Shown here in pieces: positions 8,214-14,163 of a stretch of DNA of 46,275 nucleotides (its first letter is position 1; each line of letters begins with the position of its first letter). Origin of the DNA: Pseudomonadota bacterium (GTDB lineage: Bacteria; Desulfobacterota; Syntrophorhabdia; Syntrophorhabdales; Syntrophorhabdaceae); contig JAPLKC010000103.1 in NCBI GenBank assembly GCA_026388255.1, forward strand, positions 1 through 46,275, written 5' to 3'. A program made the position numbers and the translations under genes. Below the pieces are notes generated by a model. The model did no database searches. It saw only the letters and a list, made by a program, of their open reading frames with translations, and had not been told where the DNA came from.

Positions 8214-8558
8214 ATGGAAAAAGGATTTCTCACAATTGAAGAGGTATCTCAGTACCTCAGTGTCAAGATCAGTACTCTTTATGCAAGGGTATCTGAGATA
8301 CCTCATTACAAGGTGGGAAGCTTACTGAGGTTTAAGAAAGAGGACATAGATGCATGGATGGAATCAAAGAGACAGCCATCAGTAAAGACAATCGCAAGAA
8401 CCAATAGAAAAGAGACGAATCACAGAAAACTTAATGAGCAGGAAAAAGGGGGTATTACCTCGATCGTTAGAAAGGCAATTGACGAGGCGCATGGCAAAGG
8501 TTATAATTTTGCCGGGAAATCAGACCATGTTAAGGGCCTTCGGAAAGGAGGCAAATAA
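8214..8558 (+). CDS. Excisionase-like helix-turn-helix protein, 114 aa
   Basis: The N-terminal half (residues 1-50: FLTIEEVSQYLSVKISTLY ... LLRFKKEDIDAWM) is a classic MerR/AlpA-like winged helix-turn-helix of the excisionase (HTH_17) family. The C-terminal half is basic and unrecognised. ATG 8214 is favoured because AGGGTG lies 7 bases upstream; an in-frame GTG lies at 8205. The stop overlaps the start of the integrase gene by one base (TAATG), so both are co-translated. In such pairs the small protein bends DNA and controls the direction of integrase action, or represses the operon. Confidence 0.8.
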   Translation: MEKGFLTIEEVSQYLSVKISTLYARVSEIPHYKVGSLLRFKKEDIDAWMESKRQPSVKTIARTNRKETNHRKLNEQEKGGITSIVRKAIDEAHGKGYNFAGKSDHVKGLRKGGK

Positions 8559-9622
8559 TGGGATTATTTAAAAGAGGCCAAACATGGTGGATCAGTTTTT
8601 CACACAATGGGAAACAGGTAAGACATTCAACTGAAACAAATGATAAAAAATTGGCAGAGAAGATTTATCACAAGATTATGACAGAGGTTAATGAAGGGAA
8701 GTGGTTTGAGAAGTTGCCCGGAACAACAATGGTGTTTGAGGACTTGATGACAAAATATATGAGGGAACATTCCTCGAAAAACAAGACTCCAAAATCACAT
8801 GTAAGAGACAGAAGTTTGTCTAACCATCTTATAGAACACTTTGGCGGTCTTACGCTGACACAAATTGTCCCCAGTATCATATCTGAATATAAAAACAAAA
8901 GATTAGAGGAAGGGGCAGCTCCCAAAACCGTGGTCAACGAACTCGTGCTTCTCGGCCATGCCTTCAAAATGGCGGTTAATGAGTGGGAATTAATTCACGA
9001 TAACCCTGTAAAGAAGGTATCAAGACCAGAGGTTAATAACACTATGGATCGATGGCTAACCCATGAAGAAGAAGCAAAACTGCTTGCAGAATCACCGGTA
9101 TGGCTAAAGGAAATCATTGTGTTAGCGGTAAACACAGGCCTTCGGCAGGGAGAGATATTAAGCCTCAAATGGTCTCAGATAGATATATTCAGGAAAACGC
9201 TGTATATATCTGAGCAAAAAAATAAGGAAAAAGATACTTTACCCTTAAACAGAAATGCAATGGAAATTCTCAAGACTCGGATGCGAATAAGGCAACTCGA
9301 TAACAATTATGTATTCTTCAACGGGCAAGGCAATAAGATTGACGCACGTAACCTTTTGCGCACTTTTTACAGAGTTTGTAAAAATGCCAAAATTGAAAAT
9401 TTACGATTTCATGATTTGCGTCATACATTTGCCACGAGACTTGTTCAAACGGGTGTTGATCTGTACACCGTTCAAAAGTTAGGAAGATGGAAAGACATCT
9501 CGATGATTAAGCGATATGCCCACCATTGCTCTGAAAGTTTGAGACCTGGTGTTGAAAAATTGGATGAATTTATCACAATTTTATCACAATCAAATAAAAA
9601 AGGGGTTAGCCAAAATGGCTAA
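8558..9622 (+). CDS. int: Phage-type tyrosine integrase, 354 aa
   Basis: Integrase that inserts an element into a chromosomal site. The N-terminal Arm-like region (residues 1-50) is followed by a SAM-like core-binding domain (about 58-150) and a catalytic domain with R196 (TGLRQGEIL), a Lys in KNKEKD (K223/K225), HDLRH (H285, R288), W311 replacing the second His (GRWKD) and nucleophile Y320 (IKRYAHH). The start overlaps the excisionase stop by one base. The last codons (encoding GVSQNG) and the stop lie inside the hairpin that terminates the tRNA-fMet transcript, and the gene end is 14 bases from the tRNA 3' end. The attachment site is therefore expected in the tRNA 3' half. Confidence 0.93.
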   Translation: MGLFKRGQTWWISFSHNGKQVRHSTETNDKKLAEKIYHKIMTEVNEGKWFEKLPGTTMVFEDLMTKYMREHSSKNKTPKSHVRDRSLSNHLIEHFGGLTLTQIVPSIISEYKNKRLEEGAAPKTVVNELVLLGHAFKMAVNEWELIHDNPVKKVSRPEVNNTMDRWLTHEEEAKLLAESPVWLKEIIVLAVNTGLRQGEILSLKWSQIDIFRKTLYISEQKNKEKDTLPLNRNAMEILKTRMRIRQLDNNYVFFNGQGNKIDARNLLRTFYRVCKNAKIENLRFHDLRHTFATRLVQTGVDLYTVQKLGRWKDISMIKRYAHHCSESLRPGVEKLDEFITILSQSNKKGVSQNG

Positions 9623-11877: not shown

Positions 11878-12495
11878 TCACTTTTTTTCGAAGAGTTTTT
11901 TGTATTCCCCGTAGCCTTCCTTCTCCAGATCTTCTTTGGAGATAAATCGCAGTGCAACGGAATTCATGCAGTACCTGAGCCCTGTGGGGTTAGGCCCGTC
12001 AGGAAACACATGGCCGATATGGGAATCGCCCCGTTTACTTCTCACCTCTGTCCGCACATTGAGCAATCTCCTGTCCTGCCGGGTTGCAATATTGTCCAGT
12101 TCGACAGGTTTCGAAAAGCTCGGCCAGCCTGTTCCCGAATCATACTTATCTATGGAACTGAACAATGGTTCTCCAGAAACTATATCGACATATATACCTT
12201 CCATTTTGTTTTTGTTATATTCATTCCGGAAAGGCGGTTCAGTTCCTTCATGCTGGGTTACCTCATACTGGAGCGGGGTCAAGATTTTCTTTAAAGTTGC
12301 ATCGTCAGGCTTTGTAAAATTCTTCCAGTTTGGGGGCTGTCCCTTTTCGGGTTTGGCATCCACCGGATTCTTGCTTAAAGTTTTGACATCCTTTTTTACT
12401 TTCATTGTACCTTTATCCTCCTGTTGAGCTGTGCTGCAACCATGGAAACCAAGAATCTGAAGTAGGATTACAATGACTACAACCGGTACTTTCAT
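11878..12495 (-). CDS. msrB: Lipoprotein methionine-R-sulfoxide reductase B, 205 aa
   Basis: Reduces methionine-R-sulfoxide in proteins. The chosen ATG 12495 follows GGAGG (12500-12504) and begins a lipoprotein signal peptide: hydrophobic [15 protein letters not shown] then HGC with lipidated Cys20, so it acts outside the cytoplasmic membrane. The MsrB core covers residues 65-190: [35 protein letters not shown] and catalytic Cys176 in RYCMNS. The two zinc CxxC pairs of many MsrB enzymes are absent, and Cys176 is the only cysteine of the mature chain besides Cys20, so no internal resolving Cys exists. Reduction must come from an external thiol partner. Confidence 0.93.
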
Positions 12496-12528
12496 GCTGC
12501 CTCCAATGAAAAGTTGAGCACTTCTCAA

Positions 12529-12557: not shown

Positions 12558-12864
12558 CAAACTGCAAGTAAGCGGAGAATTTCTTTCTGCCCTCTTTTGC
12601 AGTAACAGGTTTATCCTGAAAGGGGTCAATTATATGACGGATATCTGTCACATATCAGTAATATACATAATGTAAGTAAACCGCATTTTTTATTTGTTTC
12701 ACTATACAATGTCATGTAAGCAACAGAGTTCCTACGCTGCTGAAGAGTGCAAATAAGAATTAGAGACATGAAACCGGTTAAATTATATTGGTGTGACAAG
12801 GGCACAATTATTGCAAAACATATTTAATAGACATACTTGAAATCCTGCATATAGAGGAGGCGAC
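12558..12864. other. Intergenic region with palindrome and sigma-54-type promoter
   Basis: About 300 bases between msrB and the cysteine-rich gene. It contains a 16-bp near-perfect palindrome TGACGGATATCTGTCA (12635-12650, one mismatch) and the -24/-12 element at 12800-12815. The palindrome lies about 150 bases upstream of that promoter, the usual distance of an enhancer-binding site for a sigma-54 activator; this reading is inference. Confidence 0.5.
12800..12815 (+). promoter_or_regulatory. Sigma-54-type (-24/-12) promoter
   Basis: GGGCACAATTATTGCA matches the -24/-12 pattern, with GG (12801-12802) and GC (12813-12814) exactly ten bases apart and flanking CAC and TTGCA. A start near 12826 would give a 39-base leader with an AGGAGG site before the cysteine-rich gene. 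Confidence 0.6.
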
Positions 12865-13164
12865 ATGGGACAGAAGGTTTTCAAAAACAATTCTATGATG
12901 ACTTTTGAAGGGTTTTATCCGACTCGCGAGGCATACGAAAGTTGTCTTTCAGGGCCTTCTCTTAAAGAATCGACCAATGTGCATCAACATACATTTAACA
13001 CCTTTTGTGCTGGATCTCCAGAATGCCGCCGCCAGGATAAAATCGGACAATCTGTGTGTGAGTTTCAGGATTACTGCAACCACCTTTACTATATCGATGA
13101 CAGGTGCGACTGTGCGTCCGTTTGGAAGAAAACAGCAGGACTTGTTATACCGATATCCACATAA
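12865..13164 (+). CDS. Small cysteine-rich hypothetical protein, 99 aa
   Basis: Unrecognised gene with a strong ribosome site (AGAGGAGG, 5-6 bases before ATG). Seven cysteines are spread over the C-terminal three quarters: C27, C48, C54, C65, C71, C80 and C82, with His residues near them (HQH, CNHLY). The spacing does not match rubredoxin, ferredoxin or a standard zinc ribbon. There is no signal peptide, so a cytoplasmic metal-binding or redox role is conceivable. A sigma-54-type promoter upstream suggests expression under a specific stress or nutrient signal. It is a single-gene unit between msrB and tatD. Confidence 0.7.
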   Translation: MGQKVFKNNSMMTFEGFYPTREAYESCLSGPSLKESTNVHQHTFNTFCAGSPECRRQDKIGQSVCEFQDYCNHLYYIDDRCDCASVWKKTAGLVIPIST

Positions 13165-13241: not shown

Positions 13242-13274
13242 GCAGTAGAGACGCAAACATTGCGTCTCTACTGC
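13242..13274. repeat. Perfect 15-bp inverted repeat, probably dispersed palindromic element
   Basis: GCAGTAGAGACGCAA (13242-13256), 3-base loop, exact reverse complement (13260-13274). Neither strand has a T run after the stem, so it is not a canonical terminator. GTAGAGACGC-type palindromes recur in intergenic regions of several bacterial groups, from memory. It may still act as a 3' stabiliser for the cysteine-rich gene. Confidence 0.75.
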
Positions 13275-13389: not shown

Positions 13390-14163
13390 ATGTTTGTTGA
13401 CTCCCATTGCCATCTTGAAATGGAAACATTTGAACAAGACAGAGATAAGGTTATAGAAAAAAGCATAGAAGAAGGGCTCGATTATATCCTCACCGTTGGC
13501 ACTGAGGAACGTTATTTTGAGAGGGTAGTCGAGATCATTGAGAAATACGATAATATATACGGCGCCATCAGCATTCACCCTCATAACAGCAGTGATTACA
13601 CCGTACTAACGGCAAAGACCATATGTCAATATTTAACGCATAAAAAAATTGTAGCCTATGGAGAAATAGGGCTCGATTTTTTCAGGAATTATTCACCGAG
13701 GGATACACAGATTCAGGCTTTCAGAGATCAGTTGATAATGGCAAAAAGTTTGAATATCCCTGTTATAATCCATTCAAGGCATGCCAAAGATGAAACCTTG
13801 AGCATATTGCAAGGAGAATATCATGGCAACGCATCAGGGGTCATCCATTGCTATTCCTATGATCTGGATACTGCAAAAAAACTGCTTGATATGGGGTTTT
13901 ATATTTCCATACCGGGGACAATCACCTATACCAACACGCAAAAAGCAATAGAAGTTGTAAAGAATATCCCTATGGACAGACTCCTTGCTGAAACGGACGC
14001 CCCTTTTCTGACACCGGTTCCACAGAGGGGCAAAAGAAATGAGCCTCATTTTGTAAAATATACAATTGCAAGATTGGCACAGATTAAGAATAAGGACATT
14101 GAAGATGTTGCATCAAACATACGTGACAATTTTGTGAGACTTTTTTTAGGGCAAAAAAGATAG
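13390..14163 (+). CDS. tatD: TatD-family metal-dependent deoxyribonuclease, 257 aa
   Basis: TIM-barrel metallohydrolase of the TatD DNase family. Metal ligands are all in place: H6 and H8 (VDSHCHLE), E92 (GEIGLDF), H128 (IIHSRHA), H153 (GVIHCYS) and D203 (ETDAPFL). Length is typical. Family members act as 3'-5' exonucleases on DNA and have been linked to repair and DNA degradation. The start has no good ribosome site (a run of A precedes ATG), so initiation may be weak. A structured non-coding stretch separates it from the downstream hydrolase gene. Confidence 0.92.
   Translation: MFVDSHCHLEMETFEQDRDKVIEKSIEEGLDYILTVGTEERYFERVVEIIEKYDNIYGAISIHPHNSSDYTVLTAKTICQYLTHKKIVAYGEIGLDFFRNYSPRDTQIQAFRDQLIMAKSLNIPVIIHSRHAKDETLSILQGEYHGNASGVIHCYSYDLDTAKKLLDMGFYISIPGTITYTNTQKAIEVVKNIPMDRLLAETDAPFLTPVPQRGKRNEPHFVKYTIARLAQIKNKDIEDVASNIRDNFVRLFLGQKR

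Follow-up and report, generated by a model that had tools for sequence, protein, structure and literature searches.

A small cysteine protein gene with its own candidate sigma-54 promoter and enhancer in one family of syntrophic bacteria

What does a small cysteine-rich protein do, and what switches it on, when it stands alone in its genome behind a promoter of the sigma-54 type? The question is raised by a locus in a 46,275-nucleotide stretch of DNA (hereafter the window), which is a single contig (C103) of a 3.83-Mb, 98% complete genome of the Syntrophorhabdaceae. The original prediction, made from the letters of the window, described a 99-residue protein with seven cysteines, encoded by a single-gene unit behind a sigma-54-type promoter, and guessed at a stress- or metal-responsive function. 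The reading frame lies at 12865–13164 on the + strand; the ribosome-binding site AGAGGAGG (12853–12860, +) was read from the sequence, and similar purine-rich sites precede the ATG in the homologues. Family searches place an MsrB-type gene (methionine-sulfoxide reductase) upstream on the opposite strand (11878–12498) and a TatD-type gene downstream (13390–14163). Such neighbours are common to close relatives only and vary among genera. The stand-alone character claimed for the gene is borne out. At 13242–13274, 78 bp beyond the stop codon, there is a 15-bp hairpin with arms GTAGAGACGCAA, present in one copy in the window; its T-run is weak and found on the - strand only, and the hairpin is possibly a transcript end or a short repeat. 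A tyrosine-recombinase-like frame (8558–9622, +; identified by eye) lies some 3.2 kb from the gene and possibly marks the edge of a mobile element.

The distribution of the gene is narrow. A profile search of the 46 genomes of the order detected homologues in 11, all of them in one family, and in 10 of these the frame is intact. A protein search matched 10 of 60 relatives, the window's own genome counted in, and a scan of genome contigs returned five loci (G019, G030, G060, G036 and G010), all among the 11 carriers. In a sample of the phylum, with at most 12 candidates per genome scored by profile, homologues occurred in at least 4 of 395 genomes, again of the same family. The window's genome has no paralogue, its second match having an E value of 0.51 and five stops. 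The eleventh locus, in G010 (L007, G010:C22, about 1402–1671), has an internal TAA and no -24 GG, and appears to be a decayed copy in which frame and promoter were lost together. Among titles and abstracts on sigma-54 in Syntrophorhabdus, no work related to the gene was found. Judged by its sequence, this is an undescribed orphan protein family, limited to one family of syntrophic bacteria and under what looks like a familiar kind of switch. A second orphan frame, of 91 residues (L059:10113-10388 and four counterparts), follows the gene at a distance of about 70 bp in five of six carriers belonging to genus g4, the exception being G015. It occurs in 6 of the 46 genomes, in five of them at this position, and the window's genome has no copy; a remote homologue is found elsewhere in G018, and two members searched had no Pfam match. 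In the g4 carriers this frame may share a transcript with the cysteine-protein gene.

That the frame is translated is indicated by the manner in which it has diverged. Its short length, the absence of a family match and the conservation of the upstream region could also be expected if the frame were spurious and the conserved promoter made a non-coding RNA; however, no Rfam match was found, the length changes seen in the alignment of homologues preserve the reading frame, and dN/dS over the whole frame is 0.19–0.35 (8 pairs computed of 45 possible), with the lowest values in the C-terminal part, so that we consider this explanation extremely improbable. When the two parts of the protein were compared in six pairs, the ratio was 0.08–0.15 in the C-terminal part versus 0.22–0.49 in the N-terminal part, and the variable N-terminal half thus differs from a conserved C-terminal segment, residues 62–99 (13048–13161, +), which has the form C-x5-C-x9-C-x-C followed by W87, G92, L93 and P96. 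The seven cysteines of the window protein are at residues 27, 48, 54, 65, 71, 81 and 83. The check on their conservation that had been suggested divides them: C65, C71, C81 and C83, all within 19 residues, are invariant in 10 of 10 intact homologues, as are W87, G92 and P96, whereas C27, C48 and C54 are not conserved.

The promoter, GGGCACAATTATTGCA (12800–12815, +), has its GG at 12801–12802 and its GC at 12813–12814, and the exact GG-N10-GC spacing and the CAC and TTGCA flanks for which it had been singled out were confirmed. It has two mismatches to TGGCACG-N4-TTGCW, and transcription would start at about 12826. Considered in the window alone, this match is not beyond chance, six sites with at most two mismatches being present versus 5.73 expected in shuffles. 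What raises the promoter above chance is that the exact core GGCAY-N5-TTGC recurs 31–61 bp upstream of the ATG in 10 of 10 intact loci, and that genome-wide there are 135 exact sites of this form versus 35 for a reversed control. With its conserved core and an upstream activator site, the element has the marks of a sigma-54-dependent promoter.

The upstream site is larger than was first supposed. The 16-bp near-palindrome TGACGGATATCTGTCA (12635–12650) does lie where it was described, 150 bases from the GG, and is nearly symmetrical (2 mismatches to its own reverse complement), but it is only part of a 26-bp, three-half-site enhancer (UAS), GTCAATTATATGACGGATATCTGTCA (12625–12650, +), which is matched by a similar element at all 10 intact loci. 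The general form is GTCA, GCCA or GGCA, then N7-8, GAC, N7-8 and GTC. Counted from the -24 GG, its position is -98 to -101 at eight loci, which span three genera; the two loci of the window's genus have it at -176 and -185. An element of three half-sites was found in 26 of 10,000 shuffled regions, the shuffles keeping base composition only and the pattern itself being derived from the same loci. An alternative motif, the NifA-type TGT-N10-ACA, had been considered for the g4 element TGTCAGATATCGGACA; it was dropped by eye, not being kept in other genera.

Enhancer and promoter are tightly paired. A strict pattern that combines them, unfit for the spacing in the window's genus and for the G018 locus, gave eight matches in the 46 genomes, seven of them at the cysteine-protein gene, and none in the control. 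The strict enhancer pattern alone matched 21 times in nine carriers, versus twice for the control; seven of the 21 matches are at the cysteine-protein gene, each with a sigma-54 site 73–159 bp downstream, and none of the other 14 has such a site within 220 bp on either side. Its match in the window's 3.8-Mb genome is the only one there. G019 and G018 have no strict match at the gene, their elements starting with GCCA and GGCA. Our strongest result, given the patterns used, is that enhancer and promoter together appear to mark one gene. Promoter, enhancer and frame are conserved together while the flanking genes change between genera, and since the two regulatory elements stay with the gene through such changes, it probably matters when the gene is expressed.

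Which activator would bind this enhancer? If the site belonged to a ZraR-like stress regulator, the gene would take part in an envelope or metal stress response. The window's genome does have a ZraR-like regulator, together with a kinase, beside a Spy/ZraP-like gene (by eye) with a sigma-54 promoter (L247:6102-10530, G000:C42), and variants of the enhancer CGACATAATTGTCG precede the Spy/ZraP-like gene in six genomes of four genera. The half-sites CGACA/TGTCG found there resemble GACA/TGTC, and the regulator scores 431 bits on the ZraR model (cut-off 760), the AtoC model scoring higher (470 of 714). But most genera have the ZraR-like palindrome with a spacer of four bases (GACA-N4-TGTC) rather than six (GACA-N6-TGTC), and the 345–375 bp upstream of the promoter at all 10 loci contain no CGACA-N4-TGTCG and no GACA-N4-TGTC; by the CGACA-N4-TGTCG enhancer, none of the ten fits a ZraR-type regulon, and we hold a role for such a regulator to be quite improbable. 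The analysis revealed no sign of the stress or metal response guessed at in the original prediction.

Within the window's genus, a flagellar regulator of the FleQ/FlrA type would be the most probable activator. A FleQ-type box, GTCAATTATATGAC, is contained in the enhancer at 12625–12638. It has two mismatches to published FleQ consensuses, which make a fairer test than our own FleQ matrix; 2-base-block shuffles reach this closeness with p 0.022 in the window's genome (G000) and 0.016 in its sister species G001. At the eight intact loci outside this genus, the 14-bp box tested, GTCaNTAAAtTGAC, had 4–5 mismatches in all eight (p 0.33–0.92). The consensuses are those given in PMC6120874 and PMC10723142, the former stating for Pseudomonas aeruginosa that the consensus occurs hundreds of times per genome and is unreliable there. 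Our FleQ matrix gave p 0.001–0.002 in the window's genus and, elsewhere, 0.019 in G018, 0.05–0.08 in four g4 loci and 0.28–0.40 in three loci; all these values are partly circular, because the training boxes were picked with a pattern suggested by the gene's own enhancer.

Boxes of this type are found at flagellar genes of the family. One with 1–2 mismatches lies ahead of the flagellar kinase operon and its sigma-54 promoter in every one of the five genomes tested; these were five of seven, the promoter not being located in G018 and no GTCA-N6-TGAC being visible by eye at the operon of G034. In flagellar-cluster stretches of five genomes, 6 of 22 sigma-54-like promoters have a box, namely those of four kinase operons and, in two genomes, that of a fliL-like gene. 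In G030 the flagellar kinase operon has a good box, but the cysteine-protein gene has none. The window's genome has no FleQ-type box and promoter at a spacing of 40–70 bp, a range that also misses the known kinase-operon box. The gene flhA is present in 11 of 11 carriers (in G060 as a fragment) versus 35 of the 46 genomes overall (p 0.031) and 29 of 39 genomes within the family (p 0.021), kinship being ignored in both comparisons; G021 and G028 have flhA and a FleQ-like gene and lack the cysteine-protein gene.

The activators themselves were surveyed directly. There are 12 sigma-54 activators in the window's genome at E 1e-30, and when the activator groups of nine genomes (seven carriers and two non-carriers) were compared, four groups were present in all seven carriers; three of these occur in both non-carriers and one, the L133 group, in one of the two. 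No group is singled out by this comparison, since none is found in every carrier and absent from both non-carriers. The FleQ-like group is present in 7 of 7 carriers and in both non-carriers examined, and its gene has as neighbours a kinase, another activator and an operon of flagellar genes (flg/fli, identified by eye). The PDB matches of its product include FleQ and FlrA, the best being an NtrC-family protein; it has a receiver domain, and none of 25 NCBIfam models reaches its cut-off among the matches listed. In view of this NtrC-type best match and the lack of a model at cut-off, the label “FleQ-like” is one of gene order and box rather than of family. In the window's genome this regulator is split into two frames (L246:10866-12321, G000:C89), whereas in the six other carriers examined it is a single, longer frame (that of G034 reaching the edge of its stretch); the split may be an assembly error or a real loss. 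A motif search revealed no activator gene in the window, nor up to about 10 kb on either side of the gene in 10 relatives; of 138 known activators of these genomes, 4 escape the motif, and hence the search is not exhaustive. G018 has an activator gene about 15 kb from the cysteine-protein gene, on one contig with it. The L133-group activator of the window's genome adjoins a TRAP-type transporter operon (by eye) with a different palindrome; at L212 (G000:C10:16055-19913) a sigma-54 promoter and the inverted repeat ATTGTACCAAT/ATTGGTACAAT precede a TRAP-type transporter operon beside its own activator. We rate a link of the cysteine-protein gene to the flagellar programme as moderate in the window's genus and as unproven elsewhere.

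The nature of the protein is a separate question. The statement that its cysteines follow no known pattern agrees with the searches: the window protein has no match in Pfam, NCBIfam, PHROGs or PADLOC, and no credible match was found in PDB sequences, Rfam, viral contigs, plasmids or phages. The family profile found nothing better than E 0.18 among PDB sequences. Structure models were poor (pLDDT 40 for the whole protein and 63 for the C-terminal 39 residues), and the C-terminal model, of low confidence, gave one Foldseek match (E 9) and no usable fold; a short beta-hairpin is predicted in it, likewise with low confidence. When the relatives were searched in Pfam, 4 of 10 had weak matches to the EB module (best E 0.00056), to which the window protein has none.

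These weak matches are to a disulfide-rich module, and together with the MsrB-type neighbour in the window, which by eye is evidently matched by a gene of the sister species G001, they could be taken to mean that the four cysteines are a redox switch or hold a mini-domain together by disulfides, sensing or buffering redox change instead of binding metal. The EB module and others like it are extracellular domains of animals. The window protein has no signal peptide evident by eye and therefore looks cytoplasmic, its carriers are of a lineage that we take to be anaerobic, the MsrB neighbour was not seen (by eye) in other genera, and the window protein itself is without an EB-module match. A redox role appears to us doubtful. 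That the gene encodes a natural-product precursor, small toxin or bacteriocin with a cysteine-rich core is very unlikely, even if it is a small, cysteine-rich orphan with its own promoter and one of the 10 members gave a very weak match (E 0.18) to a bacteriocin family. Here it is the cysteine-rich end that is conserved and the N-terminal end that varies, a pattern opposite to that of most natural-product precursors; moreover, no gene for modification, export or immunity was present among the nine neighbours searched, other neighbours having been looked over by eye, and searches of PADLOC, plasmids, phages and viral contigs gave no match.

For a short protein that appears to be cytoplasmic and has four invariant cysteines close together, in an anaerobic lineage, metal holding is the simplest role, and the four cysteines probably do hold metal. 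Zinc ribbons and zinc knuckles are familiar examples of small C4 metal-binding modules. The window protein resembles them in its four invariant cysteines within 19 residues and in its predicted short beta-hairpin (of low confidence) and differs from them in having no Pfam, NCBIfam or PHROGs model and in that its family profile has no PDB sequence match better than E 0.18.

We therefore prefer, with a probability of about one half, to view the locus as a lineage-restricted, single-gene sigma-54 regulon that encodes a small C4, probably metal-holding protein and is governed in the window's genus most likely by a FleQ-type activator. An NtrC-type activator would bind the three phased half-sites of the enhancer, which are about 11 bp or one turn of the DNA apart, and would loop to the sigma-54 RNA polymerase, switching on one small cytoplasmic protein. 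Less certainly, the N-terminal part of this protein would be flexible and fast-changing and its C-terminal end would form a small module in which C65, C71, C81 and C83 hold one metal ion (most likely zinc, possibly an iron-sulfur cluster) and, again less certainly, the protein would act as a small adaptor or regulator and not as an enzyme, a role suggested by its small size, its lack of a catalytic pattern and its strict control.

Such an arrangement has partial parallels. The FleQ/FlrA-activated sigma-54 genes of Pseudomonas and Vibrio have GG-N10-GC and an upstream GTCA-N6-TGAC box, as does the gene in the window's genus, and like boxes are found in the carriers' family ahead of a fliL-like gene and of the operon with the flagellar kinase. 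The window gene differs from those targets, however, in not being a known flagellar gene and in that the eight intact carriers elsewhere lack a good box; the candidate activator differs too, aligning along its receiver domain to NtrC-family regulators. For the sigma-54 regulome of Desulfovibrio, activator sites are described ahead of the promoter, most often within 100 nt (PMC4641369). Genes with a dedicated activator there resemble the window gene in this arrangement. The window gene differs in having no activator gene nearby by motif, the one in G018 being about 15 kb away.

The regulation of an undescribed family can here be read unusually cleanly, in that the patterns searched pair enhancer and promoter at one gene. 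A further reading, which we consider unlikely, is that the protein is itself a new small metal-sensing switch, whose gene is wired to the flagellar FleQ-type circuit in one genus, has come under a different activator elsewhere and has kept its sigma-54 core throughout; if true, this would be a visible rewiring of an enhancer around a conserved promoter. If the activator did change between genera, the locus would offer a tractable case of regulatory rewiring, and should the link to flagella prove right, the protein would be a further component of the programme by which syntrophic bacteria become motile.
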